Under the pieces are notes generated by a model. It did no database searches, was not told the origin of the DNA, and saw nothing but the letters and a program-made list of their open reading frames with translations. Both the position numbers and the translations under genes were made by a program. Positions 18,298-54,400 of a DNA stretch of 58,947 nt are shown here, one piece after another; the first letter of the stretch is position 1, and the number at the start of each line of letters is the position of its first letter. The DNA is from a virus. The stretch spans positions 1 through 58,947 of the IMG/VR virus record IMGVR_UViG_3300031857_000198; one strand, 5' to 3'.

Positions 18298-21200
18298 ATG
18301 CCAGGTGAGGTTTTTGAATACAAGACAACTGCGCTAGGCACTGCCGAGGGCAAGGCCGACTCAGTTAACCTCAATGAGGCGCAGGGTATTGTCGAGTGTT
18401 TCGTTGCTGGCATCGGAAACAAGGACTCAGTTGGTGACATCGTTGCCACTGGTGCTTTTACAAAGAGCTTGATGCGTAGAAAACCACGTGTTGTATGGGG
18501 CCATAACTGGAATGACCCGATTGGTAAAGTTCTAGAGATTTACGAAGTTCCTCCCACCGATAATCGCTTGCCAATGAAGATGAAAATGGCTGGAATTGGT
18601 GGACTTTTTGCTCGCGTCCAGTTCAATCTTCAGTCCGAGAAGGGCCGGGAAGCCTTTGCAAATGTTGCCTTTTTTGGCGAGGAGCAAGAGTGGTCAATTG
18701 GTTACAAGACGCTACGCGCTCAGTATGACCAGAAATCTCAGGCAAATGTCATCTTTGAGCTTGAACTATACGAAGTCTCCCCCGTTCTGCATGGTGCAAA
18801 CCAGCTAACTGGAACAATCTCAGTTAAGTCAGATGAAAAGGGCGGAATGATGACCCCATCACCGATGATGATGATGGAAGAAGACGAGACAGACGAAATC
18901 CAAAAGCAGCTATCGATGGTTATCGGTTCAAAGGTCATGATTGATGACGTTGCTGATGACATGATTACCTTCTCGCGTAGGGAAGACGAAGGAAAAGTGG
19001 GCAAGTACAAGTGCCACTACAGCCGTGGACCTGCCGGATTTATGTTTGGCCCACCACAGCGTGTTCCTATGGCTCCAAAGCCAATGCCAATGATGCCAAT
19101 GGCTTCACCTGGAATGCCGTCAGTCCCAGAAAGAATTATGCGTCCTTCGCAGATGCCGGGAATCCCTGTTGCAATCAAGCCAGGCGAGGCTGGGATGCAA
19201 ATAGTTCCGCTTCCGCCAGTTGATTACGAGGACTCAGGTAAAAAGCCTCGTCCGCAGTTCGACCCGAACAATATCGACTCAGAAGAGGCTGACCTCCGCG
19301 ATTCTCTTCTTAAGATAGTTAAGCGCTATGGCAAGTTTAATGAAGACGCTGATGGCGTTTGGGCTGGGTACACATCGGCCGCAGAAAATGATGTCAAGAA
19401 CATCGGCGTCAAGTGCGCCAACTGCGTATTTTTCAAGGGTGGGAACTCTTGCCAGATAATCGACCTCGACATTGAATCTGAAGGTAAGTGCAGATTTGCA
19501 GTCATTCCTAAGGGTGTAGTCAAGGGTGATGTTGTCATCAAGAAGTCTTACGAATACCAGACAGAAGCAAATGAAGAGGATTACCTTGAGGACCTTGAGG
19601 TTAAGTATCCAGGCGAACTAGCCGTAGCTGCTCTAAGAGGAATTATTGGGCGTAAGCGCAAGAAGAATCGTAAATACAAGAGCCTCGCTGACTTCGGTCG
19701 CGAGGGCGATGACATGAATGGCGCATACTGCATTCCGGTAATGCCGCAGTATGCGTTCCGTGTAAAGCAGGCTCTCGACCCAATTTTTGATTACCACTAT
19801 GCCGACGCTTATGTGGATACGGATGGAATTGTTATCACTTCGGGGGCCAGCTTTGAGCTCATCGACGCAATTGATACCGCGCTTGATAATTTAAAAAAAA
19901 AATCCTTAAATGATGGTGGCATAGAAGAAAAGGCTATTGGCTACCGCCTAGGCAGGGCAATTGGTAGCCGAATGGTTGACCGACCAAATCTTGGTGGCGG
20001 TCGCTCTCGTGGAAGATTCTTCACCAGCTCTGGTGCTCAGGACTTTGACCCATTCACCGCAAGAGACGTTGACCTTGATGGAATTGTTGGTGAGGGCCTA
20101 TTCATGCGAGGCACACCCCTTGCGCAGGCCGACCCAACCCCAGACGGTCCTGGCTCAATACGCAACCCAAAGCCATCCCCCGAGCAGCTCAAGAAGCCAG
20201 GCGCACCTGGCGCGCCAGTATCAAAGCCAGCAACAGGACTTTCGAGTGGAAAGCTCTATGAGGTTCCACGTGTGGATGACCCAGATGTTGCGTCGTTTGA
20301 CAAAATGGCCATGGCTGAAGAGCAGAGAGAACAGCTACAGGGTGTTCTTGATGGGGCAAGTGACCCAGACCAAATAAAGAGACTGCGTAAGGCAATCAAC
20401 GAACTCGACAAATACATGAATCGTGTCGAGAAGATGTCAGAGCGCGAAATGCGTCAGCAGGATGCTGGAGACGTAACCAAACTCTCAAGCGGTTACCAGC
20501 GCTTCCTCAGCACCCCAGACAATAAGCGTAGCGATTTTGACAAGGTTAAGTATCAGGGCCCACTCAACAAGTTCAAAGAAGGTGAAAGACTTTCCTCTGG
20601 AAAGGTTCTTGACTCCGACAATGTAACCCCAGAAGAGCAAAAGCAAATTCTGGATGATGTTTATGCCAAGATGACAGAGCAGATTATTACTGCTCTTGAA
20701 GAAATTGCCAAGAATCCAGGCAATGCGAGATGGGAAATCCCGTGGCGCCAACTGGAAATCATGGCGAGAAACGCAACTGGCCAGAAGCGTGTTTATCAGG
20801 GAACAAACCAGCTGATGCTGACACTAATCAGCAGCGCTAGGGGCTACAAGACGAATCGCTGGGCCGGAGCTGGTCAGTGGAAAAAGATTGGCGGCAAAAT
20901 AAGCAAGGAGGCCATGGAAAAGCGTGGCGTCCAGATTCTTGCTCCGAACAAAACAGAGACAGCCATACTCGATAGGGATGGAAATGTAGTTGGCAGCTAT
21001 CGCGGCTTCCACACAACCACAGTCTGGAACGTCGCAGACGTTGAGGGTCTCCCACCAGAAATGTATGAATTAGATGATGTTCTTCAGTTGTCACCAGAGC
21101 AGAGACTCCAGGACCTGGAAGATGTAATCAAAGAAATTGCTCCAGCATGGAAGGAAGTCAAGGGCAATAGGGCTTTCTATAGCCCAATGGCTGACGAAAT

Positions 21201-24200
21201 CACAATGCCGCAGTTTGAGCAGTTCAAGGACCCATTGAACTTCTACTCAACGCTATTCCACGAGACCGTTCACTGGACATCACACCCATCAAGAATGAAC
21301 AGAAAACTTGGCAAACAGTTTGGTGATGCTGATTATGCATTCGAAGAACTTATTGCCGAGATTGGTTCGGCATTTGCTCTTGGCGCAATGGGTGTTGAAG
21401 CTCCAGTGAGAAAAGACCACGCACCGTACTTGGCTTCATGGCTCCAGGCTCTACGTAGCCGTCCAGAGGCATTGAAAGACGCAATTACTCAAGCTCAGCA
21501 GGCTGTTGACTTCCTGATGAATCGTTCGGCAACCATGCGCAAGCGTGCTGGTATTCCGGATGGCGAGCGCAAGGGCAAGGACGAGGCAACCGCTGAAGTC
21601 CCAATGATTGTTGGATTTGAGGATTCACCAAAGATTCCGACAATTGGTGGCGTGCGTGGAACATTTGGCGACGAAGACATTGAGGACATAGTTCCTCCAG
21701 CTCCAGCAGAAAAGCCAAAGAGAACGAGGAAGGGCTCAAAGGCCTCCGGCGAGGCTTCAACCGAGGCCCTGTCTAGCGGCGCAATGATGAGCAACCTCAA
21801 TACCGTTGATGAAGACATTATCGGCGGCGGCTATATCCGTCGTGAGGGTCGCGACGGGTTAGCTAAGGACGTATCTGGACGCTTGTCCAGTGGTGCATCG
21901 CGTGGTTCAGTCCAGCATAGGAGCGGTGACGAAGCTCGTGCCGTAAAACGCTCACCAGGAACGGCACATTTCGGAAGCCTATATGGATTCTCTTATGAGC
22001 CAACAGAGCAGCAGAAAGACATCATCGATACTGGTCTTGCTTTAATGTTTGGCGAGCAAAAAGGCATCATGACTGTTTCTGCTGGTGCCGGCTCAGGGAA
22101 AACAACAACCCTCAAGGCATTGATGGCCGCAGCTGAACGCGAGTTTGATATCACGCGATTCATTAATCGACCGGAAGCCCTAAAGGAAAAACTGGATTTC
22201 ATCTCCGAGAAGTACAGCACCGATGATGACAAGTTTGACCTTTCCTCAATGTCGGAAGAGGACAGGGATACAAAACTTTCTGAACTTAGAGACAAATTTA
22301 AGTCACCAACGGCGTACTACGTTGTTTTCAACAAGAAGAATGAAGAAGAGGCTGCTGCTGAATTCAGCGACAACACTGGTGTATCAACACTAAACAGGCT
22401 GTCTTGGTGGTCATTGTTGCTCGGTCAGGGTGACGAAAAGTATGGCAAGAAGTTCCGCGACAAGGTAAAAATTTCCACCCAGGATAGAGGGACATTTGCC
22501 AGAAGAGACAAAGACGGAAAACTTCAAACAATCAAGTTCACAAAAGTTGATGGAACAGAGGGTGAGACGGTTGGGTACGACCCGGGCTGGAGAGACCTTG
22601 GTTATTTGAAGCTATCTGACTCAAACGGCTGGATTAAAGCACTCAAGCTCACCGATAGAGAAGAGTTCTCTGCTGGCAAGGGTGCCGGAATGCCAACCCC
22701 AATAGCGGGAGTAAATCTAACAGTTAGAGACTATGCAGACATTCTTAACAAGGCACTCAAGGCATTCGCAAACAGTGCTGACGAGAAAATCGGCCCACAG
22801 CACTTCAAGAGAGCAGACATCAACAAGGGCAGAGCATCTGATTCAATTGTTGACACTGAATGGCCTTCAATTCCAGACCAGTGGTTGAAAGACGCCAATG
22901 ATGGTTGGAACATGGTTACCGACCCGGACAGCATCGTCCTTCCAGACCAAGGGCAGACAGACAAACTCTGGGCGATGACCGACCCAGACCTGAGAAGCGA
23001 CCCTGGCTTGATTGGTCATGCCACAGGAAAAGACCTAGAGGCAAACGTTCAGGTTCCAAAGGAAACAAAAGTTGGGGACATTCTCCCTGACGGACGTGTG
23101 GTTATCTCTGTAAAGACAGGCCAGAAAGGCAAGAACTTCCAGGCCACGGTCGCGCGGAGATACGCAACTAAGGATAACCCGCTGTCAATGTTCATGATTG
23201 ACGAAGCTCAAGATATGAACCCAGTAATGGAGCAGGTGTTAAATAAGAACAGAGACAATCTCTCTATTCTACTTGTTGGCGACAAGAGGCAAGCAGTTTA
23301 TGCGTTCCGTGGTGCTAAAGACATTCTTTCCTCACTAAACGGCGACTATGACCTCCCATTGAATGAGTCGTTCCGTTATGGACCAACTGTTGCTTGGTTG
23401 GCAAACCTGATTCAGTCACAGGGCAATATTGACGATTCTGAATTGGGAATAGAAGACAGATTCCACCACGTTGCCGGTTTGGCTGTTGATGTAATCAACA
23501 ACGACTTCGACATGGATGGCCTTTCCCCAGAAAGAGCCCGCGAAGCCTTAGTAAAGATTGAGTCAAAGTACAAGAGCGACAGAATCAGAATTGCCCAAAA
23601 AGGCATTCGTGATGATTTCGATATGACAAGCATGACTGTTGACCAGAGAAGAGAAAAGCTCAAAGCAGCAGACAAGAAGTACAAGACAAAGCTTGCATCT
23701 TTGTCTGATGATGAAATTGTTTCAGGTATTGAAATCAACAAGGCTCTCTCCAAGGAGCTCCGAAAAGTAGAAGATAGTTACGTTGCTCTTGCCGATATGG
23801 ACGAGGCAGCAAGAAGCAAGGAGCTTGCGTCACTAAAGGATGTTCTTTCAAAAGAAGCAGCTGGTGAGTTTGTTGCCGACATGAAGGACGCTGACGCAAT
23901 CCTTACGCGCGATAATGCAACAATTATTTATGAAGCATTGCAGTTCATCCAAAACTTCCAGCCGAGATTCACCAGAAACGGACAGGAACTCCCTCCCGTT
24001 GTGATGATTCCAGCGACAAAACACAGAGAAATGAAAGCATTCTTTGAGCACTTGTCGTTCGTAATGGATACACCGGTAGATAAGCAGATAGAGCTGACAA
24101 AGAAGGGGTTGCGCCCGAAAGCGTCTTCATGGATTGGTGATGTTTGGGATGCTGGCGAAATAAAGCGCAGGGCTCAACAAGAGCAGTATGCACAGCTCAA

Positions 24201-27200
24201 GTCAATGTACAAGCTTGTTACTCGCGGCAATAAAAACCTCGGAATCCCACCACGCAGGGCATGGGAATACCGAAACATGTTCGCTAATGGCGTAACGCCA
24301 GGAATCAAGGCGCCAGTCATTGTTCCAGAGAGAAAGATGCTCAATCTTTCCAAGCTCAAGGACGTAAATGTTGATGACCTAAAGACCATATCTGCACAGC
24401 GCGGAACGGGTTTCACCTCAACGTCAACAGCAAGTCGTGCCAGAAGATTTGAGGTAATTCCAGACACAACCGGTAAAGGAAAGAGCAAGGTTCAGTGGCA
24501 CCTCCAGCTCGCGGATGTGAACGGAAAGCGTGAGGGCGAATGGACGGGGGCCATTGAGTTATTTGACTGGGGCATTGATAGCGGTGGTGAATACACCGAT
24601 ACCAAGACTGGAAAAGTCGTAAAAGCGCCACAGGGTGTCTACTTCAGAGACATGATGAGAATCCTAGAGGATAGTGATTACTACGGTGGAAAAGTCCAAT
24701 TCAAGAAGAACGGTCTCCGAAACAAGGAAGGTTCTGGAAAAGAGTTTGGAGACACTGTTGTTATCAAGGGCGATACCGACGAAGAAACTGCTTTTATTCT
24801 CAACGACATAGTAAGCCGCATGAGGACTTCAGCAAAAACGCCAAATGCTGACGTTGAAATAACAACCGCGCAGCTATCCAAGGGTAGAGAGTGGGATAGG
24901 GTCCGCGTTGCTTCTGACTTCCGTAATCCTCCAGACCTCGACATAGACCCAGAAACTGGAAAACCAGTTGAGAGTCGCTCCAGAAGAGAGGAACTCAACA
25001 TTGTTTATGTTGCTCTAACTAGAGCAAAGAGAGCAATCGACCCGGGCAAGGCAATATACGACCTTTACCTCTCTGACACTGTGTCGGCAAGACAAAGGGA
25101 GGCAATCGACAAGGCTATTGAGGACGGCAGAATGCCCGACTATCTCAATAAGCCGGAAGGCCTGTTTGACCCATACTCTGGGGAAATAAATGCACCAACA
25201 CCAACAATCGAAGACGACGACGATGAGCCTGGCGACTACGAAGTTGGTGGTGGCGATGATGGCAAGTCAATTGACGACATAATCAAAGAAAAAGAAGAGG
25301 AAAAAGAAGACGAAGACGCCAGCATCGACGGAATCGAAGACATCGGTGACGAGGACGCGTCCAATAGTCCAGACATGGACCAGTTCGTTGACTTCCTTTC
25401 CTCTGGTCGCTCAGGTCGCGGACGCAGAAACCGCAGACTAAATCGTTCCCGTCAAACCCCATGGTCCGACGAAGACAGGCAAAGATTTGCTGACCGTGAC
25501 AGGCTGAGGGCAAATCGTCGCCCTGGCAAGCGGAATGATGGTCCGTCGCCAGAAGAGTTCTTCTCTAGCGGTCGTACCGATGTGGAGCTAGAAGGAAGAT
25601 TTGGTCGCAGACTGCGCCAGGGCGGAGCTCAGCGCGCACCAAGGAATGCAAGACCAAGCACACAAGGAATTGCAGGTCTGAGGTTGTCTGGAAACCCAGA
25701 AACAAACTCTAAAGCTAGACGCGAACTCGATTATTCAATGCGCGTATGGGACGGATTCAAGAGAACCGGCATAGCCCTTGACGTGAATAGTGATGATTCT
25801 GGAACTGATGCAAGACAGAGACAGATTCGCGAAGCGATGAACAACGTTTCACAGAGAATGGCAGACAGACCACAAATTACTGTTGGTAGCGTTTCGTCAA
25901 ACAACCCTAACCAGAACCCAACAGCCTCAACATGGATGCTCTCCACGGAAAAACTGAAGGATACGATAAGAATTCCAACGGAATACTCTGTCCAGACCGA
26001 CCCAGGAACCGGAAGAAAAGACATTACTTGGACCCAATCGCGTCCACTAAGCAATGATGAGCTGGCATCCCTGCTGAACCTTGACAAGCCAAATGCGGCA
26101 AAACTTTCGGACCCCGATGCCGGAATTAACCACGATGCGGTACGCATGCTTGTTGCCGAACTTGGAAAACAGCCAGAGTTTGCTGGATGGAGGCTTTTTG
26201 CCCCTGTCACAAGAGCAGACGAAGACTTTGCTGAAATGAACGTAATGGAACGATTTGCGGAAAATCTTGGCAGGGCCAACATGCGTGACCGATTCATAAT
26301 CGAAACATTTGGCAAGGACGCATTCCCACACTGGTTTGACGAGGAAGAAAATAACCCAATCTCCCCAGAGGAATACGATTCACTTGGTGAGGTGAGCAGG
26401 GTTTCACAATTCCGTGCTAGCGGCCGATTCGATAAAGATAGCGCCACCAGGGGTGACTCACCAGTTGAGGAAATGCTCATGGAGGAGTCAATTGATGAGG
26501 CAGAACTTCCTGACATACAGGAGCCAGATGTTTCTGCGGAGGAGCTAAGGGCTGACAAGACTGCGCGCAAGGACTTTGAACTTGACGCTCTTCTCAAGTA
26601 TCTGGGTATCCCAGAAAAGGGATGGCAACAGAGAATGCGCGAAAGACTGCAGCAGTCGTTCGGCATGGATGATGTTGGTCTTGGCGCACAGAGTGACTGG
26701 AAGAAAAACGGAGTTCCAATCGCGTATATCAACCAGATGATAAAGGCTGGTCTCATTCCAGACGCCAGTTCTGTTTGGCGAGATGGAGACTCCGGTTCAA
26801 AACTGGATTCAGAACTCAGCAACGCGAAACATGCTGTTTATGAGGCACTTAATGAATTTATTGACAAGAGTTTTCCGAATTCGCCGCAAAACAGCACAAA
26901 AACGCGCAACTACATAACAAACAGCACAGATATGGCCCTATATCTGTCGGAGTCAGCAAAGAGAAAAGGTTCCGTATTCAGCCCAAGAAAGGGCGATGAA
27001 CCAAGATTCAGCAGCAACGAGCTACAACAGATTGTCAACAGATTCAATGAAGCATTTGGAACGAATCACACCATTGAAGACATCTTCAGTAGAGAGCAGC
27101 TAGAGACAGCACGCAGAAGAATTGAAGAGGATGGCGAGACACTCTCTGGAAAAAAACGAGAGAGAAGAAAGGTTAAGCCAGACAATTTCGCCAACGATTA

Positions 27201-27201
27201 A
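18298..27201 (+). CDS. Giant fusion: prohead protease, ArdC-like antirestriction metallopeptidase, UvrD-like helicase
   Basis: A 2,967-aa protein with a GGAAGG site 7-8 nt before ATG. (1) Residues ~1-185 are the HK97-type prohead protease: GHNW His69, EWSIGY Ser133, Glu159 of YEVSPVLHG. (2) Cys373, Cys376, Cys385 and Cys398 form a metal-knuckle-like domain. (3) Residues ~560-605 are a Gly/Arg linker with RDVDLDGIVGEG. (4) Residues ~782-1118 are ArdC-like with zincin motif HETVH (988-992) and EELIAE (Glu1021). (5) Residues ~1235-2290 are an SF1A helicase: Walker A AGAGSGKT (1262-1269), IDEAQD (1634-1639), QAVYAFRGA, NESFRYG, SKGREWD, YVALTRAK (2237-2244). (6) The rest is unrecognised. LSSG-type motifs sit between domains at 576, 648, 729, 765, 1158, 1196, 2367 and 2422. 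Protease next to portal and capsid is standard; the remaining fusion is exceptional. Confidence 0.93.
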   Translation: MPGEVFEYKTTALGTAEGKADSVNLNEAQGIVECFVAGIGNKDSVGDIVATGAFTKSLMRRKPRVVWGHNWNDPIGKVLEIYEVPPTDNRLPMKMKMAGIGGLFARVQFNLQSEKGREAFANVAFFGEEQEWSIGYKTLRAQYDQKSQANVIFELELYEVSPVLHGANQLTGTISVKSDEKGGMMTPSPMMMMEEDETDEIQKQLSMVIGSKVMIDDVADDMITFSRREDEGKVGKYKCHYSRGPAGFMFGPPQRVPMAPKPMPMMPMASPGMPSVPERIMRPSQMPGIPVAIKPGEAGMQIVPLPPVDYEDSGKKPRPQFDPNNIDSEEADLRDSLLKIVKRYGKFNEDADGVWAGYTSAAENDVKNIGVKCANCVFFKGGNSCQIIDLDIESEGKCRFAVIPKGVVKGDVVIKKSYEYQTEANEEDYLEDLEVKYPGELAVAALRGIIGRKRKKNRKYKSLADFGREGDDMNGAYCIPVMPQYAFRVKQALDPIFDYHYADAYVDTDGIVITSGASFELIDAIDTALDNLKKKSLNDGGIEEKAIGYRLGRAIGSRMVDRPNLGGGRSRGRFFTSSGAQDFDPFTARDVDLDGIVGEGLFMRGTPLAQADPTPDGPGSIRNPKPSPEQLKKPGAPGAPVSKPATGLSSGKLYEVPRVDDPDVASFDKMAMAEEQREQLQGVLDGASDPDQIKRLRKAINELDKYMNRVEKMSEREMRQQDAGDVTKLSSGYQRFLSTPDNKRSDFDKVKYQGPLNKFKEGERLSSGKVLDSDNVTPEEQKQILDDVYAKMTEQIITALEEIAKNPGNARWEIPWRQLEIMARNATGQKRVYQGTNQLMLTLISSARGYKTNRWAGAGQWKKIGGKISKEAMEKRGVQILAPNKTETAILDRDGNVVGSYRGFHTTTVWNVADVEGLPPEMYELDDVLQLSPEQRLQDLEDVIKEIAPAWKEVKGNRAFYSPMADEITMPQFEQFKDPLNFYSTLFHETVHWTSHPSRMNRKLGKQFGDADYAFEELIAEIGSAFALGAMGVEAPVRKDHAPYLASWLQALRSRPEALKDAITQAQQAVDFLMNRSATMRKRAGIPDGERKGKDEATAEVPMIVGFEDSPKIPTIGGVRGTFGDEDIEDIVPPAPAEKPKRTRKGSKASGEASTEALSSGAMMSNLNTVDEDIIGGGYIRREGRDGLAKDVSGRLSSGASRGSVQHRSGDEARAVKRSPGTAHFGSLYGFSYEPTEQQKDIIDTGLALMFGEQKGIMTVSAGAGSGKTTTLKALMAAAEREFDITRFINRPEALKEKLDFISEKYSTDDDKFDLSSMSEEDRDTKLSELRDKFKSPTAYYVVFNKKNEEEAAAEFSDNTGVSTLNRLSWWSLLLGQGDEKYGKKFRDKVKISTQDRGTFARRDKDGKLQTIKFTKVDGTEGETVGYDPGWRDLGYLKLSDSNGWIKALKLTDREEFSAGKGAGMPTPIAGVNLTVRDYADILNKALKAFANSADEKIGPQHFKRADINKGRASDSIVDTEWPSIPDQWLKDANDGWNMVTDPDSIVLPDQGQTDKLWAMTDPDLRSDPGLIGHATGKDLEANVQVPKETKVGDILPDGRVVISVKTGQKGKNFQATVARRYATKDNPLSMFMIDEAQDMNPVMEQVLNKNRDNLSILLVGDKRQAVYAFRGAKDILSSLNGDYDLPLNESFRYGPTVAWLANLIQSQGNIDDSELGIEDRFHHVAGLAVDVINNDFDMDGLSPERAREALVKIESKYKSDRIRIAQKGIRDDFDMTSMTVDQRREKLKAADKKYKTKLASLSDDEIVSGIEINKALSKELRKVEDSYVALADMDEAARSKELASLKDVLSKEAAGEFVADMKDADAILTRDNATIIYEALQFIQNFQPRFTRNGQELPPVVMIPATKHREMKAFFEHLSFVMDTPVDKQIELTKKGLRPKASSWIGDVWDAGEIKRRAQQEQYAQLKSMYKLVTRGNKNLGIPPRRAWEYRNMFANGVTPGIKAPVIVPERKMLNLSKLKDVNVDDLKTISAQRGTGFTSTSTASRARRFEVIPDTTGKGKSKVQWHLQLADVNGKREGEWTGAIELFDWGIDSGGEYTDTKTGKVVKAPQGVYFRDMMRILEDSDYYGGKVQFKKNGLRNKEGSGKEFGDTVVIKGDTDEETAFILNDIVSRMRTSAKTPNADVEITTAQLSKGREWDRVRVASDFRNPPDLDIDPETGKPVESRSRREELNIVYVALTRAKRAIDPGKAIYDLYLSDTVSARQREAIDKAIEDGRMPDYLNKPEGLFDPYSGEINAPTPTIEDDDDEPGDYEVGGGDDGKSIDDIIKEKEEEKEDEDASIDGIEDIGDEDASNSPDMDQFVDFLSSGRSGRGRRNRRLNRSRQTPWSDEDRQRFADRDRLRANRRPGKRNDGPSPEEFFSSGRTDVELEGRFGRRLRQGGAQRAPRNARPSTQGIAGLRLSGNPETNSKARRELDYSMRVWDGFKRTGIALDVNSDDSGTDARQRQIREAMNNVSQRMADRPQITVGSVSSNNPNQNPTASTWMLSTEKLKDTIRIPTEYSVQTDPGTGRKDITWTQSRPLSNDELASLLNLDKPNAAKLSDPDAGINHDAVRMLVAELGKQPEFAGWRLFAPVTRADEDFAEMNVMERFAENLGRANMRDRFIIETFGKDAFPHWFDEEENNPISPEEYDSLGEVSRVSQFRASGRFDKDSATRGDSPVEEMLMEESIDEAELPDIQEPDVSAEELRADKTARKDFELDALLKYLGIPEKGWQQRMRERLQQSFGMDDVGLGAQSDWKKNGVPIAYINQMIKAGLIPDASSVWRDGDSGSKLDSELSNAKHAVYEALNEFIDKSFPNSPQNSTKTRNYITNSTDMALYLSESAKRKGSVFSPRKGDEPRFSSNELQQIVNRFNEAFGTNHTIEDIFSREQLETARRRIEEDGETLSGKKRERRKVKPDNFAND

Positions 27202-27260: not shown

Positions 27261-27318
27261 TTAAGCAAATTGATTGGTTAATGTCCCTATGGCATTTCCC
27301 TGCATTTACGGGAGTTCT

Positions 27319-28910: not shown

Positions 28911-31900
28911 ATGTCGGGTGAACCGGTAAAGCACAGGGTAATAACGTCTGGACGTCTAGTATCTCCAGTTGCCTGCTGTAGGGACTTCGATGCTAGAGCG
29001 CTTCGTTTCAAGCAATCAATCAACGGAAGCGTCTACTCAGGCAGGCTTCAAGCAGATATAGCCGTAAAGGCGCTTGGTTGGGACATCTCTCGCAAACAAG
29101 ACGAGGGAAACACTGACAATAAAAAGCGTGAATTCACCGGGGAATCAATGCCCGGTGTTGAAAAAAACGCATACGGGTATAGGTGGAAACCAGAAGCCAG
29201 ATGGGAACCGGGCTCAAAGCTTGTTCTATCGCCAACAATTGAGAGCATTCGCGGAATGGATATCGAGCCTAATTTTGGCTGGATTCCAGAAAAGGAACGC
29301 GAAGTTGATTCGTTTGACAAGCTGCTGAATAAGCTGCGAAATAAACCACACATAAAAATATCTAAGTTTGATGTAAACCCTAAGACTGACGAAGTTGACA
29401 CATCTTCTGAAAAAATTGTCGACCCATTTGCAATGTCAACAGGCATGACAATGGAGGAACGCAGAAGAAGGCTCAACAAGGGCAAAAACGTAGAAGAAAA
29501 ATCATTAGGACCCAATCTTGGTGCGCGAGTTCCTGGCGGTTCATTGCTAGCAAGGGCAGCTGCAGCAGTTGGAATACTTAGAGATGAAAATAATAAGTTT
29601 AGGTGTCCTCCAGGAACGCCAGCAGCTAACCAGTTTACGGACGCCATGGGCTCAAACTGCTTTGGGTTCAGTGCTAGTAGATTCGCAAGATTTGCTGCTC
29701 GCCAGGCCGCAGAACTCTCCAACCAAGGAGAAATGCAGGGACTTAGAAACACTGCACGAAATGTACTTGACTTTGTTTACAACGGAAGATGGTTTCGTGA
29801 CCTAGCTGATGCTGACCCAGCAAGAATTGGTCGCAGTCCATGGTATGACGCAGCAACTGGCGAAAGAATAGAAACACCTGACTGGCGTGACGTTGATGGC
29901 CCAGAAAATCTCCGCGTAACAACTAATGGGATGATTAACGCGCAAGATGAAATTGCGCGAGCTGATGCTGAAGTTCTCAGTCTACTGGATGACCTTGGTG
30001 TCGACATAAGTGATGAGGCGAGAGCCACGAATGAAGACCTTGGTCAAGCATTTGACACACTGCGACAGATGGCTAATAATGGCGACCCACGCGGATGGGA
30101 TGTAAACCTTGTCAACGCAAACGGAGTAGACCAGCCAAGACTGACACCACAACAAGTCGAGCAGTTTGTCACAGCCCGCCTACAGGCCGTTCAGGGATGG
30201 ACTTCACTCTCAAAAGAAGAACAAGACCTCATGGTCAAGGCTGATACTGCAAGATATTACGAAACCGAAAGAGCATTCCTTGAGTCCCTGCTAGTTCAGT
30301 TCAAGAGAAACCCATCTGCAGCAAAGTTTCTTGGAACAATCATGTACGACTCGGACTCGAACCACGAGGCCGGAACATCACTAATGCGCGATGCTGCTCA
30401 AATTATCGACATGACTGACCCTGTTACTGGGAAAACAAGAAAAGTCAAAATACCCGGGGAAATGCGTGGGGTAATCGACTTCAACATGGACATGATTATG
30501 AGCAACCAGGAAACCATGCTTCCAAACATGGGTGCTGGCCAGCGCCTGTCAATAGCTGCCATTGGCGGAAGAACAGACGCCGAATCTCAGATGGCTCTTT
30601 CACATTTTATGCTAAACGCTGACCTTGCGGCTCGCCACATGGCTGGACTCGTAGATGGTCCAAAATCATTCACAAGACACATAGGGATACACGAATTTGC
30701 CCACTTGGTCCAGGCTCAGGGATTCATGGAGGAGATTGACCGCAGAGCAAAAGCCGGAATGCTTGAGGTTCCGCAGTTCTCTAAGCGCGGCGACTATCTA
30801 GGGCAGAAAAAGATAAATAGCCTTTACGACTTAAGCGCTGGCGACATCATGAACATGATGACACAAACAGCTGACGGGATAAACCTTAAAGAACTTGGTG
30901 ATGTGATGAGCCGCCTAGAGGGTGTTGCTCAGTTCTCTGGCGCATATCCAAGAGAATATGAAAAGGGAAGCGAAATATGGGCGCTCGAAGCCCTTGCTGA
31001 ACTTTATGCGCTGAGGGAACAAAAACTTATAAGCGGCGATGACGTCGACTCGGTTCTGGAGTTCATGGATGACATCATGGCAAAGAGAGCTGAAACTTCG
31101 GCAGCAATCGCAAGCGCAACATATGACCTGGATGAGGTTGATTCTCCAGACATTGATTCACCAACAGCAGACGTTCTTCCTGGAATAACGCCAGAAGAAC
31201 TAGACGCAATGGCAGAAGAAGCGCTAGTCCGTAGGGTTGCCGACAGGAGAGAAACTCTAAAAGCTTTCAGAAGTGACTATTCGGGACTCACTCAGGAGGA
31301 GATGTTTGATGTTGCTACAGAAATAGCGACAGATTACACTATCGCTAAAGAAAGTCTGGATGAAATAGAAAAGTCGGAAATCCCATCTGGCTTAACACCG
31401 GAAGAAACAGATGCTGCAACAAGAGCCAGACAAGAGCTTCTTGATATAGCCATAGAAGAGGCTCAATTCCATGAGAAGAAGTACGACGATGCACGTCGTG
31501 AATGGAAAAAGAAGTATGGAATTGGTGCTCGTTCGGAAAACGCAAGATTTGACGCAGAAGTAGGGTCACTAAGGGAGTCTCGCGGCCTACTTAGTCCATC
31601 GGAAGCTGCTAAAAATGCAAGAGCAAGACAGCTTGATGCTATTTCTGAAGACATAACACAAATCGATGATAAAAAAGCCATCAGAAAAATGGCCGACACC
31701 CAAGTTCTGATGAAGGCAAATTCTGATGATGTCGACAAATCAGTAGAACTAGCTGAAGAATTCGACACCATGAAGAATGCCATGATTGAAAAACTTAGGG
31801 CTGGTGGAGATAAACGCAGCAGGTCGAGAATTAGTAAAGAAATCGATGAAAAAATTGAAGCCCTAAACAGCCCTAAACCAAAACCAACTAGAAAATTCAA

Positions 31901-34900
31901 ATCGAAAGCGGATGCTGATTCATTTGTTAAGTCTCGTAGGGCGAGTCAATCAAGACGACTTACGCCACGTCAACGTGAAGCCATTCGCCAGATTGGTACT
32001 GGTGAAGACGTGGATATCTCTAATGTTTTGGACCCACAGAAACAAGTTTCCGCTGGTCGTGCAATAAATCGTCGCAACGCTCGCCTTGCAAGGCTTGGTC
32101 TTGAGGTAGATGAAAATTCATCTTCTGAAGCCCCCCTTGATAGGCAAGTGCAGAATGTTTTGATTCCAACAATGGAGGCGATAGATGCCACCTCCATAAC
32201 AGAGCCTTTCGAGATTGAGGCAATCGTAGAAGTTGAGTCTGGTAAGGTTTCCGGCCGCTCTGTTGGAAAAGATGTTCAGATAGACAGCCTCGTTACGGGC
32301 AGGCTTATGCCCAAGGGCCGTAGACCAACGAAGCTGACAAGACAGCAAGAATCTGATGCCCCCGAAGGCAAGAAGAAGAAGCGCGTTGTAATTTCTCTGA
32401 AGGAGGGAGACAAGGGAATATTCTCGTCTCCTGGAGAAGATGGGGAGAGCAGATTCATTCTACCTCCCGGCTCTTTGCGTGTTGTGTCTCGTGGTGACGA
32501 TGGAACAATCTACATGGAGGTTTCATCTCAGAAGAATGCAGTTGAGGCTGCCGAGTCATTGAGGGATTCTCTTTCTAACGGCACTGATGACGCAATTTGG
32601 CGAAAAGGTGCATCCAATAGGGTTGGCAAGGTTGTCAATGAATATGTGACTGCACGCCGGGAAAGCAGAGATATAGATTCCCCTAGAAACGACAGCGATA
32701 AACAGATAGCAGAGACAAACTCATCCATCAATGAACAGGTAGTTGATGCTGGCTCAAGCTTTGGTGAAGGTATAGATGATGTTGACCTTCAGGGCGCAAG
32801 CGAATCATTGTCATCCGGACGTTCAATATATGGTCCAAAACAAACAAGAGCACAGAGAACCGAGTCTCGACGCAGTAAAATCTCCAGCAACGCTAAGGAA
32901 ATAAGAAACATACTTTCAGGCAAAGGCTCAAAAGAATTCCCAGAACTATCAAAGGAAAATATTGACCCACGTGTTGCCGAATTAATTATGAACCTTCCAG
33001 ATGAAGAACTTCATTCACTAATCGAGGAAACCGCATACAGAATGCATTCTGGCCTAGATAGGCGCGCCCGTGTGAGAATGAGGGAATCAGAAGTTGATGA
33101 AATGCTCATAACTGGAACGGTTCGTTCACCACTCGCATCAAGCTCTGACGATTCTCCAGTTGCTTCAAGACGCATAGAAAGAATACTGAGACGCAACTCA
33201 TCTGGCACAAGAGAAGACGGCTTCAGAAGAGCCATGCAAAGCGAATCCCTTAGCAGTGGGGCAGTCAAAAAGGGCATCGGTGAGCGCCTAAAGGGCAGGG
33301 CGATGAATCAGATAGCTGAACGAATGGGCCTCGATGATGAAGAGAAAGAAGTCATGGAGCTTGTCGTTGATACGGCCGCAGCGATGCGTTTTGGTCCTCA
33401 AGCTGCACTCACGAAACTTGGAATGGAACTAGCCAGAAGAGGAAGCAGAGACCTAGCAGAGTTTGTTGTTGAAAAACTTAAGGAAGACGACAGAATCAAC
33501 GATGAACAAGCAAAGATGATTCTTAAGAGAATGAATAGAGTTGCCCCAGAGGGGCTGCCCGAACCGCTCAAGGATGCCGCAGTTTCTGCAGCAAGGGGCG
33601 CGCGCAGGATGGTTGATACACCAGAAAACAGGGAAAGAATAGCTACAGCGCGTGAATCTGCTGGACGCAGAGCAAGGCGCTTACGAGATGCAAGCGCAGA
33701 ACGAGTGCGCGAAATGCGAGACAGAATAACTGGTGTTGAGGCAATCAACGACGCGGGCGAAACTGGGCCTCCTATCGGGCTACCGCCAGTGCCGGTTCTT
33801 CGCGGCGAACCACGAGTGACCCTCTCTAGCGGAAGGGTGGAGAGAACACTTAAGCCTGGCTCGATATCCCCACAAACTTCCAAAATAAAGAGCAGTCGTG
33901 CTTCAATCTCTCTCGGGGAAAATTGGCGTGACCAAATAGAAGTTTACGAGATAGGCGGAAAGCGTGTCGCCTTCGGTGTTCCCAATGAACAGTCATGGGA
34001 ATCAGATATATCTGATGTTGAAGTTTTACCAATTAACCCATTTGTTATTTCTGGGCTTGACGAGACATCTGACGAGGGCCGGGAGTTGGCCATTAAGTGG
34101 ACACTTGCCGGAATTGGACTTAATGAAGAAGGTAATGATTCAAAAACAGAAGCAAGTTCAATACTTTATGCAGCAACGCGCGGTGACACTGACGCACAAA
34201 AGAGACTTGATGACCTTGCCGAGGCCGGACAGAAGACAGTTGACGCAAGTCGCAAAAACATAGCCCAATTACGACAGGAAACAATCGATAGGGAAGCTGC
34301 CGCAAGAGAGAAGACCCTAAGTGAACTTAGAAGGGCATTGCCAGACGCTTCAGAAGAAGAAATACAAAGAAGAGCACGCCCCTCTCGGTCCAACGGCTTT
34401 AGTGGCCTGTCAGTAGACGACCTGTATCTCGTCCACGAAACTACATATGAACCACAGTACGACAGTGATGGTAATTTAGTTATAAGACCAACAGGCGACT
34501 ACCCAATGCTTGATGAAAATGGTCAACCGCTACTCGATGACAATGGTAGACCGTGGGATACATATAGGGGAACAATACATTTTTCTATTAACCACAGGGT
34601 TTCCGGACATCAGCAAAGAGAGACCCCAGAAGCAAGCAATGTAATAATGATTCCGTTAAAGGACGTTATTGCGGCCAACCCTGGAGCACTCGACAACCTT
34701 TACGGAGTTGATACATATTTAACGCCACCACCGGGGGAGCCACTCAAACTTCCTGCGTCTGCAGTTAGGACACTCAAACTAGAAAAGGGTGAAACCGACC
34801 CATGGGGCAAGGTTCATACTGAGCTTGAAAGCATGGGAATGAGTCCTGATGTCAGGATGTATGGAGGCACAGACTCTGTTGGCCTCGATGCCGACCAGAG

Positions 34901-35123
34901 AATAAGTGGAATAGCTGCCCAGCTTGACGTTGAGAATAAAATGCACTCACACTCAGATAATGCACACTTTGAAAAAACAAGAAAACATGATGGTATGTCA
35001 TTCCCTGTTACTCCTGGAATATTTGCTAACTTAAGTCGAAATGCTCTTCTGCGTTTAATGCATCAAGATAGATGGTCTGGGGCAAACAACTCACTATCTG
35101 AAACAACAAGAAGTGTTGTTTAG
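28911..35123 (+). CDS. 2,070-aa multidomain head-module protein with zincin motif and LSSG junctions
   Basis: Starts ATG 15 nt after the previous gene. The N-terminal ~200 residues are unrecognised. A Cys motif (RCPPGT at 231, second Cys at 252, with FTD between) is shared with the 680-aa protein at 37791. Residues ~584-700 form a metallopeptidase-like segment, GIHEFAHLV with HEFAH at 594-598 and Glu693/697 in a following helix. Residues ~800-1080 are helical and highly charged. LSSG occurs at 1300-1303, 1447-1450 and 1638-1641. Residues ~1655-2070 are homologous to residues ~170-530 of the 1,210-aa protein at 51491 (shared YLVHET, TIHF-NH and LPPP-type segments). No overall family recognised; probably a capsid or ejected polyprotein. 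Confidence 0.85.
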   Translation: MSGEPVKHRVITSGRLVSPVACCRDFDARALRFKQSINGSVYSGRLQADIAVKALGWDISRKQDEGNTDNKKREFTGESMPGVEKNAYGYRWKPEARWEPGSKLVLSPTIESIRGMDIEPNFGWIPEKEREVDSFDKLLNKLRNKPHIKISKFDVNPKTDEVDTSSEKIVDPFAMSTGMTMEERRRRLNKGKNVEEKSLGPNLGARVPGGSLLARAAAAVGILRDENNKFRCPPGTPAANQFTDAMGSNCFGFSASRFARFAARQAAELSNQGEMQGLRNTARNVLDFVYNGRWFRDLADADPARIGRSPWYDAATGERIETPDWRDVDGPENLRVTTNGMINAQDEIARADAEVLSLLDDLGVDISDEARATNEDLGQAFDTLRQMANNGDPRGWDVNLVNANGVDQPRLTPQQVEQFVTARLQAVQGWTSLSKEEQDLMVKADTARYYETERAFLESLLVQFKRNPSAAKFLGTIMYDSDSNHEAGTSLMRDAAQIIDMTDPVTGKTRKVKIPGEMRGVIDFNMDMIMSNQETMLPNMGAGQRLSIAAIGGRTDAESQMALSHFMLNADLAARHMAGLVDGPKSFTRHIGIHEFAHLVQAQGFMEEIDRRAKAGMLEVPQFSKRGDYLGQKKINSLYDLSAGDIMNMMTQTADGINLKELGDVMSRLEGVAQFSGAYPREYEKGSEIWALEALAELYALREQKLISGDDVDSVLEFMDDIMAKRAETSAAIASATYDLDEVDSPDIDSPTADVLPGITPEELDAMAEEALVRRVADRRETLKAFRSDYSGLTQEEMFDVATEIATDYTIAKESLDEIEKSEIPSGLTPEETDAATRARQELLDIAIEEAQFHEKKYDDARREWKKKYGIGARSENARFDAEVGSLRESRGLLSPSEAAKNARARQLDAISEDITQIDDKKAIRKMADTQVLMKANSDDVDKSVELAEEFDTMKNAMIEKLRAGGDKRSRSRISKEIDEKIEALNSPKPKPTRKFKSKADADSFVKSRRASQSRRLTPRQREAIRQIGTGEDVDISNVLDPQKQVSAGRAINRRNARLARLGLEVDENSSSEAPLDRQVQNVLIPTMEAIDATSITEPFEIEAIVEVESGKVSGRSVGKDVQIDSLVTGRLMPKGRRPTKLTRQQESDAPEGKKKKRVVISLKEGDKGIFSSPGEDGESRFILPPGSLRVVSRGDDGTIYMEVSSQKNAVEAAESLRDSLSNGTDDAIWRKGASNRVGKVVNEYVTARRESRDIDSPRNDSDKQIAETNSSINEQVVDAGSSFGEGIDDVDLQGASESLSSGRSIYGPKQTRAQRTESRRSKISSNAKEIRNILSGKGSKEFPELSKENIDPRVAELIMNLPDEELHSLIEETAYRMHSGLDRRARVRMRESEVDEMLITGTVRSPLASSSDDSPVASRRIERILRRNSSGTREDGFRRAMQSESLSSGAVKKGIGERLKGRAMNQIAERMGLDDEEKEVMELVVDTAAAMRFGPQAALTKLGMELARRGSRDLAEFVVEKLKEDDRINDEQAKMILKRMNRVAPEGLPEPLKDAAVSAARGARRMVDTPENRERIATARESAGRRARRLRDASAERVREMRDRITGVEAINDAGETGPPIGLPPVPVLRGEPRVTLSSGRVERTLKPGSISPQTSKIKSSRASISLGENWRDQIEVYEIGGKRVAFGVPNEQSWESDISDVEVLPINPFVISGLDETSDEGRELAIKWTLAGIGLNEEGNDSKTEASSILYAATRGDTDAQKRLDDLAEAGQKTVDASRKNIAQLRQETIDREAAAREKTLSELRRALPDASEEEIQRRARPSRSNGFSGLSVDDLYLVHETTYEPQYDSDGNLVIRPTGDYPMLDENGQPLLDDNGRPWDTYRGTIHFSINHRVSGHQQRETPEASNVIMIPLKDVIAANPGALDNLYGVDTYLTPPPGEPLKLPASAVRTLKLEKGETDPWGKVHTELESMGMSPDVRMYGGTDSVGLDADQRISGIAAQLDVENKMHSHSDNAHFEKTRKHDGMSFPVTPGIFANLSRNALLRLMHQDRWSGANNSLSETTRSVV

Positions 35124-35140: not shown

Positions 35141-36658
35141 ATGACAAGTAACAACAATCAGCGCGGATTTAGCGCAAGAAATATAACGAAGTCAGAAAAG
35201 GCTCGGGCAAATAGATTTATTTCTGCCGCTGTTTCTCGTTCTGGTGCCAGCAAGCAGGAATCAGACAATATTAAAAAAACCATTTGGGAGCTTCGTTCAG
35301 TTGTTTCTCGTGACAGAGACTCGGGGTATATGAAAGCGGCTACGTCTGTAGCTACGGACATTGGGCCGGATTATGCAATTGCTGCAGTCTCAAGACTCGG
35401 TGATATGGGGCTTGTTGGTGACATCGAAGTTGAATCAATGATTTCCGCGATAGAAAAGAAGCACAAAACCAACAGAAATAATTCGGTGCGAATAACCCGA
35501 TTATTTAATCAGGCAGCAGATGCTGTTACGGAGTCAGGAATTGGTCTTCTCGCCCCAAAGGTTATAAATGGCAGAACGATAGGTTCGGGCGGAAACCGCA
35601 ATAGAAGTGCAACCAGTGAGCAAAAACCTTTAGGTGGAGAAACCGTAGAAAGAGCGGCATCGGACATTGCTAGGGATTATTACGCAAGCGTTGGTCTTGG
35701 TCAGGATGTACCTGACGAGCTAATGCCGGTCTCTGGGTACGTAATTCACGAGGACCAAATCAAAAAGAAAAGACAGCTCGCAATGTCTTCAGGTATTGGC
35801 AACGTTGAGTCAGATGCGATATTTGAATTAGGTGACGAAGATATTCTCGGTGATGGATTGACCGCCCATGGGGAAATAGAGGTTGTGCTAAAGCCCGGCG
35901 TATCAGGAAGAGTGTCATACGGAATGGGTAATGGGGTGAAAAATGGCAATAAGCCTGTTCGCCTTAACTCAACAAATAAAGAAGATGTATCTGACGCCCT
36001 ATCTAATCTAGATGGCTCAAACGGAAAAATAGAGTCAATGGAGACAATGCTTAATCTGCTTGCGGCAAGTATTGATAAGGATTTTGCAGACGTCAACAGC
36101 TCACTCGATGAGTCTGGCTCAATGAGGCGCTCTGGGCAATTTGATTCAGAGAAAAGAACCCATAAACCGCTTGAAGCACATGTGCTTGGTGGATTTGACA
36201 TAGATGAAATTGAGCAAATTAACTACCCGTTCACCAAGTTGCAGAAAATGGCCGCCAATCAGGATATAAGCGATGTTGTTAACGAATCATTTATTAACAA
36301 CACCCTTGTTAAGAACGGATTTACTATTGAAGAAATTGAGTACATGTCTTCTACGGGGATGACTTCACGCACAAACACCGAAAGTATGGACATGCTTCGC
36401 TCCTACAGGCTTGCCGTAAAGATGCGAGACAAGTACCAGGAGTCAGGCATAAACAAATTAATGATTGCTCACCCATCTGGCATAAATATCTTTAACCCAC
36501 TAAGCCACTCTAAAGCTGCGAGGCCAGGACAAGATGTTGAAGAGGTTTTGAAAGAAAACATAGAGATAGAGATAGCCGAGATGGGCAAGAAGCTCATGAA
36601 GGAAATAAGAAGCAGTGAAAAACCTTCACTTATTTCAAGACGAGGCGGCAAGCTATGA
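35141..36658 (+). CDS. Unknown head-module protein (505 aa)
   Basis: Starts ATG after GGTGG, 17 nt downstream of the 2,070-aa gene. The N-terminal 130 residues are basic and helical (KARANRFISAAVSR; MISAIEKKHKTNRN). The middle part (PVSGYVIHEDQIKKKRQLA, then AMSSGIGN and GEIEVVLKPGVSGRVSYG) looks folded. The C-terminal part is helical with NKLMIAHPSGINIFNP. It ends by overlapping the next ATG (ATGA). Catalytic motifs are not apparent. It contains one SSG motif like those in the giant proteins. Confidence 0.7.
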   Translation: MTSNNNQRGFSARNITKSEKARANRFISAAVSRSGASKQESDNIKKTIWELRSVVSRDRDSGYMKAATSVATDIGPDYAIAAVSRLGDMGLVGDIEVESMISAIEKKHKTNRNNSVRITRLFNQAADAVTESGIGLLAPKVINGRTIGSGGNRNRSATSEQKPLGGETVERAASDIARDYYASVGLGQDVPDELMPVSGYVIHEDQIKKKRQLAMSSGIGNVESDAIFELGDEDILGDGLTAHGEIEVVLKPGVSGRVSYGMGNGVKNGNKPVRLNSTNKEDVSDALSNLDGSNGKIESMETMLNLLAASIDKDFADVNSSLDESGSMRRSGQFDSEKRTHKPLEAHVLGGFDIDEIEQINYPFTKLQKMAANQDISDVVNESFINNTLVKNGFTIEEIEYMSSTGMTSRTNTESMDMLRSYRLAVKMRDKYQESGINKLMIAHPSGINIFNPLSHSKAARPGQDVEEVLKENIEIEIAEMGKKLMKEIRSSEKPSLISRRGGKL

Positions 36659-51490: not shown

Positions 51491-54400
51491 ATGTCTGAGA
51501 ATAAAGAATTCCCTATTCCCTTTGATGAGTCACGTCGTGGAAAGCGTGCAGGTCATGAGGAGAAGTCAATTGGCCGTCGACTCCTTGGTCGCGCAATAGA
51601 TAGACCATCAATTGGAAGAAATAGGGGTCGAAACAACAATGTTGACCTACCCACTGGGGGCAAGCCAGGAAAACGCCGCCCAACGGGAACAACGAGAGAC
51701 ATCGACGGCGATGGCTGGGTTGATGAAGGAACCACGAACCCCAGATGGATGGGGGTCCCGAGCGGGAATGGGAACAGCCCTGGGGTACCTAATAGGAATA
51801 GAAAAAATCCCAACGTAAAACCAAACGCCCCTAAGTCAAGCCGCGAAATAGAGTCAATATTTCTTTCCAGTGGGAAACTTCGCGAGCGTCCAGTAGTCGA
51901 AGAGATAGACAGAAACCTGAAAGATGGCTCACTTAGCACCTCTCCCAACAAGGGAATTATTGGTATGCGTGATGGCGGATTTTCGGTCGCAAAAAAGCCA
52001 AGTGAGTCTGATTCATTTCTACGTCAGGAATACCGTGAATGGTCAATCGGTGACGAGAAGGTTATCTTCGGCATACCAGAACGCCCTGCATCAATGGCCG
52101 ATGACCCCGGTTACTACGACGGTGATGCAAAAATCGTACCCATGAACCCTTATGTTATTTCAGGATTGCCAGCAGACTCCAAAGAGGGGCAAGAAATAGC
52201 AAAAAAGTGGGCTTATGCGAAATCGTCAGCAGAAGTTGCCGGCGACGAAGAACCTACATACATAGAGGCACTTCTATATGCTGGGTCGCGTGGTGACTCC
52301 GAGGCAATGAGCATATTCGATGAATTTGCCAAAGTGGGAAAAGCTGCTGCAGATAAGGCAAAAGAAGAAAGAGCTGCGACATATCTTCAGTCATACAACA
52401 GAGAAGATGTTCAGCAGGACCTAAAAAGAGCCGGTCTCGACAACCTCTCGATTGATGATTTATATCTAGTTCATGAAACCAAATATGAACCGGAATTCGA
52501 CGAAGATGGCAACTTGATGCTTAGGCCTCTTGGTGATTGGGTTCTCAAGAATCTAGATGGCCAGGATGCAACATACGATAGGGAAACAATTCATTTTGCA
52601 ATGAACCACCTTGCCGGCGGCCATCTTATGAGGCAGAGAAACGACGAGGGTGAAAACAGGTACATCATAGTATCCAAGCTTTCAGACGTTCTTGAAATGA
52701 ACCCCGGCTCCATTGATGCCTTAAATCCTGTAGATGTTGGGCTCGTTCCACCACCCAATGAACCATTGAGGCTTCCAAAGAAATCCATAAAAGTTTTAGA
52801 AAATCCAGATACGGAAGACGTCGACTCCCTTGTGTCACAAACTCTCAGGGAAATGGGTGCAAAACACATATTCACTGCGGGTGAGTACGGGAATAAAACC
52901 GAAACAAGTGCAATTCTAAAGATTGCCTCAGAACTAGGCGCAAATGTTGAGCTTCACGCAAATACACCGAGTGGTTCAATTGAGCAAATTGACAAGGGCA
53001 CAAATTTATCTGGCTCTTTCATTGGTGCCAACTGGCTTGGTGAAATGAGCGAAAACTCAATAGCGCGACTCGGCAATAATTCAAAATGGCACGGATTAAA
53101 GGAAACCGGCTACTCGATGCGCCGAGACGAATATGAAGATTTGCTAAATTCAAATTCTGGGAAGCTCGGTTCTGACACTGGTAGAAGTGAGGTTCTTTTT
53201 AGCGGCAAAGCTCCACAGTATCCACGTCCACCGGCATACGGTCCACTTATTGGCGGAGCGGAAGAATATTTCGATGGAGTTAAAGACTGGCAAGAATTCG
53301 CAGAAAAGTACCGTGGCCGAGATGTTGTATGGATTGACTATGAAACAACTGGGTTAGTTTTTGATGAGTTTGGCAAAAGCTCGGCAAATGGCAAACCGGT
53401 TCAGCTTGGTGCCGTCAAAGTAAGAGATGGCAAAATAGTTGACCGATTTAATGTATTTATAAATCCAGGCGAACCACTTGGCGAATGGTCGAGACAGTAT
53501 CTCCGTGGTCCAGGTGGTGAGAACCTTACTGACGAATGGCTATCTACTCAGATGTCTTTATCTGACGCTCATAGACAATTTGCTGAGTTTGCTGGAGCTG
53601 GTGCAATACTTGGCCTCCAGAATGCAGCTTTCGATAAAAACGTTCTCGAAGATGAACTCAAGGAAAACGGCATAGATTGGCAACCAACTGGGTACATCGA
53701 CACCATGGACATGTCCGCCATGACCTTGCCAAAGTGGACGCCAGAAAACCAAGATGGGCCATCAATGGTCGGCCGCGACGGAGAAAGACGTGCATCCAGC
53801 AGTCTTAAGGCCATAACGGAATACCTGGATGTCGAGCTTGGTGACAAGCACCACACAGCCGACGCTGATGCTGAAGCGGCAGCCATGGTTATGGAGAACC
53901 TCATTGCTAGGGCCATAGAAAATGGCTGGACAGCTGACGCAATAAAGCCAGATACGCGACGCGAGTTTGTGGAGAAGCGTAAAAAAGAATTTGACGAAAA
54001 AGTAGCAAAATTTGAAGAAGACAAGAAGTCTTACCTTGACGCGTTAGCCAATGAGTCCGATGGAGACAAACTTTCATCTGGGGCAACCAAGACAAAAGCA
54101 CGTAAATACGGAGATAGCAAACCTGGCGGTGAGGAACGATTTATTAGAAATAGTTCAACATGGCTAAAAGGCTTAAGCTCAAAACAGATTGCAGAGCTTG
54201 TTGTTCCCGAATCCCATGAACAGTACATAGAAATGCTGCTTGATGATTACTTCCCTGCCCGAGATGGTGAAAATCCAGGCTTTGTGGATGCATTTAAAAA
54301 CAACTTGATTGAGTCAATGAAGAGGAGTCCGTGGATTAAGGGCGACTACTCAGAAGAATCGACTGAAAAGATTAGAGAACTTGTTGAGTCTTCTCTTGAG

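Follow-up and report, generated by a model that had tools for sequence, protein, structure and literature searches.

The DNA studied here, a viral stretch of 58,947 nt covering positions 1 to 58,947 of IMG/VR record IMGVR_UViG_3300031857_000198 (the window), encodes three giant multidomain proteins, called here A (2,967 amino acids, aa), B (2,070 aa) and C (1,210 aa), in which a four-residue motif, [L/F]SSG (the tag), recurs between enzyme modules. The gene for A, which begins with a Peptidase_S78 prohead protease domain, starts at 18298, between the portal gene (16098-18194) and the gene for the major capsid protein (41380-42741). All eight SSG in A take the form [L/F/T]SSG, and the tag is found at three places each in B and C, once in C as LFSG (Table 1). 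A preliminary description of this DNA had given these positions, all of which were verified, and had omitted an NSSG at residue 1429 of B. TSSG 576 is the weakest site, as TSSG has just six copies in genes A and B of 25 genomes, against 265 LSSG and 65 FSSG in the giants of the clade described below.

The three proteins contain 11 copies of LSSG, against a mean of 0.20 and a maximum of 3 in 2,000 shuffles, and chance was therefore rejected as the source of the repeats. For [LFT]SSG the count is 13 against 0.40 expected by shuffling. A near-identical 151-kb contig served as background: apart from the three proteins, its heuristic open reading frame (ORF) set amounts to 41,172 aa and contains one LSSG (Fisher p 2e-9). 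The 11 window copies are encoded by 11 different DNA 12-mers, so the signal sits in the protein and is not a DNA repeat. None of the 11 tags in the two window proteins with Pfam matches lies within a Pfam domain, which agrees with the linker placement first proposed.

In C the tags bound four units: a leader (1-128), a paralogue of the C-terminal module of B, an exonuclease and a segment with an HEYGH motif. Hypothetical cuts after each G would split the protein into residues 1-128, 129-572, 573-864 and 865-1210. LSSG also precedes the paralogous module in B, and in C that module is the second piece. Its two copies (window 33834-35120 and 51875-53206) have LVHET and TIHFxxNH stretches and no Pfam match; B as a whole, with its HEFAH motif, has none either. 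The leader-like stretch of A resembles the N-terminus of C (38% over 122 aligned columns, E 2e-8 in a single comparison), and the leader consensus, IGxR...IDRPxIG...DxDxDGxxxEGT, stands ahead of the first tag in several giants of differing lineages. By analogy with the capsid targeting sequences of T4 (PMC9026906), the leader module may be a capsid targeting signal. Its DxDxDG loop lies upstream of the first tag in 24 of the 25 ORFs that have it, but these are only 25 of 92 tag-bearing ORFs, and the loop was rejected as a universal partner of the tag. Pfam domains in five further giants include ArdC, MPTase-PolyVal, UvrD helicase, RNase_T, sigma-70 region 4, KTSC, zeta toxin and pentapeptide repeats; judged by their domain content, the cargo domains of the giants are plausibly early-infection effectors.

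Table 1. Giant proteins, modules and tags in the window, in order of position.
Feature	Coordinates	Strand	Basis or remark
Giant polyprotein A, 2,967 aa: S78 prohead protease, leader-like stretch, ArdC + zincin, UvrD-type helicase	18298..27201	+	
Peptidase_S78 domain, residues 28-174	18379..18819	+	Pfam; variable E128 directly ahead of EQEWS
Leader-like module of A, ~residues 545-620, DxDxDGxxxEG loop	19930..20157	+	resembles N-terminus of C
TSSG 576, weakest candidate tag, within leader-like stretch	20023..20034	+	sequence position
LSSG 648 tag	20239..20250	+	sequence position
LSSG 729 tag	20482..20493	+	sequence position
LSSG 765 tag, directly ahead of ArdC	20590..20601	+	sequence position, Pfam domain
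ArdcN + MPTase-PolyVal cargo, residues 787-1062	20656..21483	+	Pfam
LSSG 1158 tag	21769..21780	+	sequence position
LSSG 1196 tag	21883..21894	+	sequence position
UvrD-type helicase cargo, residues 1251-2246	22048..25035	+	domain matches
LSSG 2367 tag	25396..25407	+	sequence position
FSSG 2422 tag	25561..25572	+	sequence position
Giant polyprotein B, 2,070 aa: residues 1-1299 tag-free with HEFAH, tagged modules after	28911..35123	+	
LSSG 1300 tag	32808..32819	+	sequence position
LSSG 1447 tag	33249..33260	+	sequence position
LSSG 1638 tag, C-terminal module begins here	33822..33833	+	sequence position
C-terminal module of B, paralogous to residues 139-538 of C	33834..35120	+	sequence comparison
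505-aa ORF, separate in window, fused into polyprotein B in 21 relatives	35141..36658	+	
Polyprotein C, 1,210 aa: leader / paralogous module / RNase_T exonuclease / HEYGH segment	51491..55123	+	
Leader module of C, residues 1-125	51491..51865	+	sequence comparison
LSSG 125 tag	51863..51874	+	sequence position
LFSG 569 tag, directly ahead of exonuclease	53195..53206	+	LSSG, FSSG, GMRS or ISGRM there in relatives
RNase_T exonuclease cargo, residues 613-800	53327..53890	+	Pfam
LSSG 861 tag, other border of exonuclease	54071..54082	+	sequence position, border comparison

Relatives were collected by a capsid-protein search, in which the best 80 of at least 506 loci were retained. Fifty contigs were taken (47 of the 80 capsid-search loci and three other loci), of which 36 were joined into portal-to-capsid regions, giving 37 region sets with the window; the other 14 were excluded as near-duplicates, as short contigs, or for size (G033 and G045). 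Seven sets have no S78 match in the analysed stretch (G004, G021, G025, G028, G031, G044 and G052), several of them because the contig or the stretch starts within the gene. [LF]SSG is found in both giant genes A and B in 25 of the 37 sets, and G004 has three LSSG in a single truncated giant. The highest number in one chain is 18, along with two MSSG, in a 4,740-aa protein of a relative. The consensus over 314 distinct contexts is [R/G/K/S]-[L 249, F 65]-S-S-G-[R/A/K]. The giants of this LSSG clade contain 265 LSSG where 4.5 would be expected, and the small ORFs 7 where 5.2 would be. The top 4-mer, taken from the first giant alone, is also enriched (p<0.05) in the other giants of its genome in 27 of 36 region sets, and the preference for L or F in gene A correlates with that in gene B (Spearman 0.67, p 3e-4; 25 genomes, kinship uncorrected). 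In one relative (G022, L130; ORFs at 2210 and 9727) polyprotein A is split into two overlapping ORFs, the first of which ends within 10 aa of an LSSG; this is either a recent fission or a sequencing error.

The tags of the LSSG clade lie at module borders. Measured on 325 tags in 50 proteins, the median distance to the nearest homology end is 5 aa, compared with 31.7 aa when positions are shifted (25 in the lowest of 200 controls), and 76.9% of the tags are within 20 aa of such an end, compared with 38.5% of controls, although the test somewhat favours the tags because shared tags can themselves lengthen alignments. Linkers kept with the motif lost, the pattern that would speak against the preliminary description, are not what the clade as a whole presents, and across clades another repeated motif substitutes. 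None of 73 tags in seven proteins falls within a Pfam domain (11.4 expected). Protein ends are likewise avoided, with 3 of 435 tags at 60 aa or less from one (9.5 expected). Where the end of an ORF matches an internal joint of a relative, the ORF had no tag of its own genome within 80 aa of that end (none of 14 N-terminal or 78 C-terminal ends compared), and for the matching internal joints a tag at 40 aa or less was present in 18 of 77 (9.9 expected) and 23 of 71 (10.6 expected) cases. The 505-aa ORF, separate in the window, forms the C-terminal part of polyprotein B in many relatives, through either gene fusion or fission. Its joint is the clearest case, where 8 of the 21 fused relatives have their own tag within 40 aa (G005, G007, G009, G015, G017, G021, G026 and G036).

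Other lineages have other tags. A motif-free scan found GMRS (G050, G046), RGMAS (G047), GLAS (G049), ISGRM (G041, G042) and AGMA (G053) as the leading 4- or 5-mers in giants. Own-tag counts in the giants exceed expectation in each class (GMRS 45 against 0.2, ISGxM 33 against 0.2, GMAS 11 against 0.1, GLAS 13 against 0.2, AGM[AG] 14 against 0.4), while tags of foreign lineages have 0-8 copies per group, few above expectation. Four giants of L158, L159 and L109 (G050) have 38 GMRS tags, and one of these giants has a zeta-toxin domain and pentapeptide repeats. Two further protease-based scans gave 155 loci (L160-L314), several on the same contigs as region sets (e.g. L160 and G041), with sufficient giant sequence in 104 for the repeated-motif scan and in 66 for the test with non-redundant contexts. 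These scans added GFSS, GFAS, GLRS, FASxS, LRSSG, VSGKM, LSGSM and EAGM, mostly with 4-8 copies each. With non-redundant contexts, 59 of 103 gene sets beat the best shuffled score; in four of the 59 (L220, L275, L277, L294) PGMP/PGAP low-complexity strings came out on top.

The strongest single result comes from homologous borders shared by genomes of different tag class. Both partners have their own tag at 117 of 1,137 distinct pairs, against 25.5 expected and a maximum of 52 in 500 shifts, and a less strictly de-duplicated count is similar (124 of 1,105 against 24.5, maximum 50). All five non-LSSG classes contribute to the pairs with LSSG, 18-22 pairs each. Where the exonuclease module begins, the tag is LFSG in the window, ISGRM in G041, LSSG in G034, FSSG in G025 and GMRS in G050, all within about 15 residues of a common P-x-x-PR-x-P stretch. 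Such differing tags at homologous borders point to a lineage-specific recogniser.

Taken at sequence level, the tags rather probably mark where a phage protease acting in trans processes the giants, and this protease is most likely the S78 prohead enzyme that heads A. [L/F]SSG would then be the processing tag in modular cargo polyproteins of a large tailed-phage family represented by metagenomic contigs. The giant proteins would probably be carried into the prohead, where the protease may act; we infer that the bond cut would lie at or beside each tag. Cutting would detach the protease from its own chain and set loose the individual enzymes (ArdC/zincin, helicase, exonuclease and others), to be delivered along with the DNA. 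Every lineage would have its own tag, and modules common to genes or genomes would bear the local one. The chances seem even that this amounts to a private, lineage-specific cleavage code, in which one prohead protease reads a 4- or 5-residue tag, the code shifts genome-wide and jumping cassettes are recoded locally. The branches of such a code would be GMRS, GLRS, GLAS/GMAS/GFSS and LSSG on one side and ISGxM/VSGxM/AGM on the other.

The S78 domain of A has a clear family assignment (PF04586, 40.6 bits against a curated cutoff of 21; phrog_80, head maturation protease, 2e-24). H69 and S133, which we take to be the catalytic residues, are invariant in 12 aligned S78 sequences. A structure model of the domain (mean pLDDT, a per-residue model confidence, of 67) has T4 gp21 as its top fold match, a weak one (prob 0.93, E 0.026, TM 0.38), followed by weak matches to herpesvirus proteases (varicella-zoster virus, VZV, and human cytomegalovirus, HCMV). 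In 26 proteins the first tag lies 275-769 aa (median 520) beyond the catalytic serine, [LFMT]SSG being counted in the LSSG clade. Tag themes fit the S78 protease tree, as they would fit that of any vertically inherited gene. The position at the head of A, the distance to the first tag, the fold matches and the fit to the tree make S78 the natural candidate recogniser. A hydrophobic-x-small pattern would cover LSSG, GLAS, GMRS and ISG but suits AGM[AG] badly, and the themes can be aligned in more than one way. Of 21 LSSG-clade rows, 20 have E directly ahead of EQEWS, which does no more than suggest this residue as the specificity switch.

Several observations weigh against processing by S78. 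The tag of the same genome is absent from the major capsid protein, the classic substrate, in all 33 sets with a capsid match and a defined tag (three of the 37 sets have no capsid match, and G048 has no defined tag). An L[ST]S[RH] at the junction of the capsid delta domain and N-arm is also present in G031 and G027, which have other tags, and stays L in F-tag genomes. Sequences of different tag class share 74-89% identity in the S78 domain, which would leave few residues to account for a change of specificity, and E before EQEWS is also found in G048 (no tag found), G027 (VSGxM), L171 (VSGKM) and L233 (LSGSM). Of 37 inner branches in the protease tree, 12 have good support, and GMRS turns up at two positions. 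As for the tags themselves, 44 of the 103 gene sets have no significant motif, and the top 4-mer of gene A is not enriched in the other giants in 9 of 36 sets (G043, p 0.053, and G044, p 0.052, are near misses). The 102 non-LSSG sites in 18 proteins lie no nearer to homology ends than controls do (median 76.5 against 78.6; 29% against 22% within 20 aa), conservation depth being low with far fewer relatives to align. In six of the 21 relatives with the fused 505-aa ORF the joint has no nearby tag (G004, G018, G024, G043, G044, G046); in six others the own tag is 119-181 aa upstream, and in G010 it is 67-69 aa away. Sites also share ancestry across genomes, and site counts are thus not independent.

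The preliminary description had taken LSSG to be a substrate recognition site of the prohead protease. The short border signal in several genes is strongly supported, as it recurs in relatives, is replaced by another tag at homologous borders and is missing from the compared ORF ends. The role of S78 stands less firmly, given the capsid protein without a tag, the near-invariant domain and the presence of rival zincins.

Those zincin-type metallopeptidases within the polyproteins could themselves cut the tags, in the head or after injection. All three window proteins contain an HExxH motif, one of them in a Pfam MPTase-PolyVal domain (3.4e-38), and autoproteolytic release by such domains was proposed by Iyer et al. 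2017 (PMC5512222). HExxH is nevertheless absent from the S78-headed giants of G019, G032, G046, G047, G049, G050 and G053 and from the first half of that of G022, where a zincin would need to act in trans. The MPTase is itself cargo adjoining tags, and the HExxH motifs of B and C have no Pfam peptidase match, so that cutting by zincins seems unlikely.

The tags might also remain uncut and serve as docking peptides for a co-evolving capsid or scaffold protein, like cargo-loading peptides. A binding partner would equally yield lineage-specific tags across genes and the agreement in L or F, and some tags are closely paired (19 of 379 spacings are below 20 aa). The avoidance of protein ends and the tagless ORF ends that match internal joints argue against docking, for which the separate leader module is the better targeting candidate, and we regard it as improbable.

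It is very unlikely, and strongly disfavoured, that the tags are neutral, flexible S/G-rich linker sequence with no recogniser: they do sit in poorly conserved stretches, near which P, D, S and G are enriched, but linker composition does not yield one fixed tetrapeptide per genome across genes and another at homologous borders of other lineages. A DNA-level effect (a repeat, a recombination site or a composition bias) that happens to encode LSSG has a negligible chance, since the distinct 12-mers refute it in the window, even though homologous modules do recur in different genes and genomes.

Among cultured phages, six that have a related capsid protein (GMA6, Cantare, Chidiebere, DalanDe, ScarletRaider and Gilgamesh) carry at most one [LF]SSG in any examined protein encoded between portal and capsid. 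Other short repeats do occur in these phages, such as ARTP/PTAH in Chidiebere, and Streptomyces phage Gilgamesh (L021, 2657-16531) encodes a 4,624-aa protein between its portal and capsid genes without repeated [LF]SSG. Protein B has no cultured-phage match at E 1e-5. A search of genome contigs for a host gave five loci, none with a clear tag; four are in metagenome-assembled genomes of differing phyla (possibly misbinned phage) and one is in Sinosporangium album (40% identity). Elsewhere in the window, a 212-aa protein (40575-41213) has two copies of a GCxG...WMPC repeat, noted by eye, and a very acidic 540-aa protein encoded between A and B (27274-28896), with relatives in 34 of the 37 sets, is a scaffold candidate.

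The proposed processing has parallels in known systems. Herpesvirus assemblin (S21) is released from its own precursor and has the site (V/L/I)-X-A↓S; it serves scaffold processing, whereas a string of cargo enzymes is proposed here. In RNA-virus polyproteins the enzymes form one chain that includes a protease and has a common short site at its joints, while the present case concerns a DNA phage, several separate chains and a different protease fold, with processing proposed from sequence. As in a polyprotein, the junction motif is common between units and absent from natural ends, with exceptions. T4 gp21 cuts after L/I-X-E (PMC9026906), and SPN3US gp245 cuts after A-X-E, freeing its own C-terminal propeptide (PMC10052503). 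Like the proposal here, T4 gp21, phiKZ gp175 and SPN3US gp245 are described as combining one protease, a very short motif, several substrates, autocleavage and proteins delivered with the DNA (PMC9026906, PMC10052503). In the T4-type systems described there, the motif is reported mostly for removing propeptides and core proteins, the major capsid protein included; here, in contrast, the tag occurs up to 18 times per chain between enzyme modules, is lineage-specific and is absent from the capsid protein.

Polyvalent proteins are described as phage proteins of several domains that combine ArdC, MPTase-PolyVal and helicase with further effectors, and have been compared with RNA-virus polyproteins released by embedded peptidases (Iyer, Burroughs, Aravind 2017, PMC5512222). 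The giants likewise join several distinct effector domains, ArdC/MPTase included, in one chain. From genome position and the S78 fusion only, we infer that they may be packaged and injected. Assemblin-like peptidases are stated to be always C-terminal (PMC5512222), while the S78 protease is N-terminal here. The main text of that paper does not contain 'linker', 'LSSG' or 'short motif', and the passages considered report no repeated junction motif. Polyvalent proteins, their likeness to polyproteins, their proposed autoproteolysis and the short motifs of prohead proteases are thus already published. Repeated lineage-specific junction tags were not reported in the open-access literature searched, and such multi-site tags appear to be new.

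If the proposed reading is true, these DNA phages process cargo as RNA viruses process polyproteins, which would account for the packaging and unpacking of very large polyvalent proteins. The sequence record would be a natural experiment on the joint shift in specificity of a protease and dozens of its sites, and cut sites would be predictable in proteins that lack experimental data. It would also supply protease-tag pairs that are orthogonal and allow the enzymes that these phages may inject to be listed, and the standing proposal that polyvalent proteins are processed would become directly testable.

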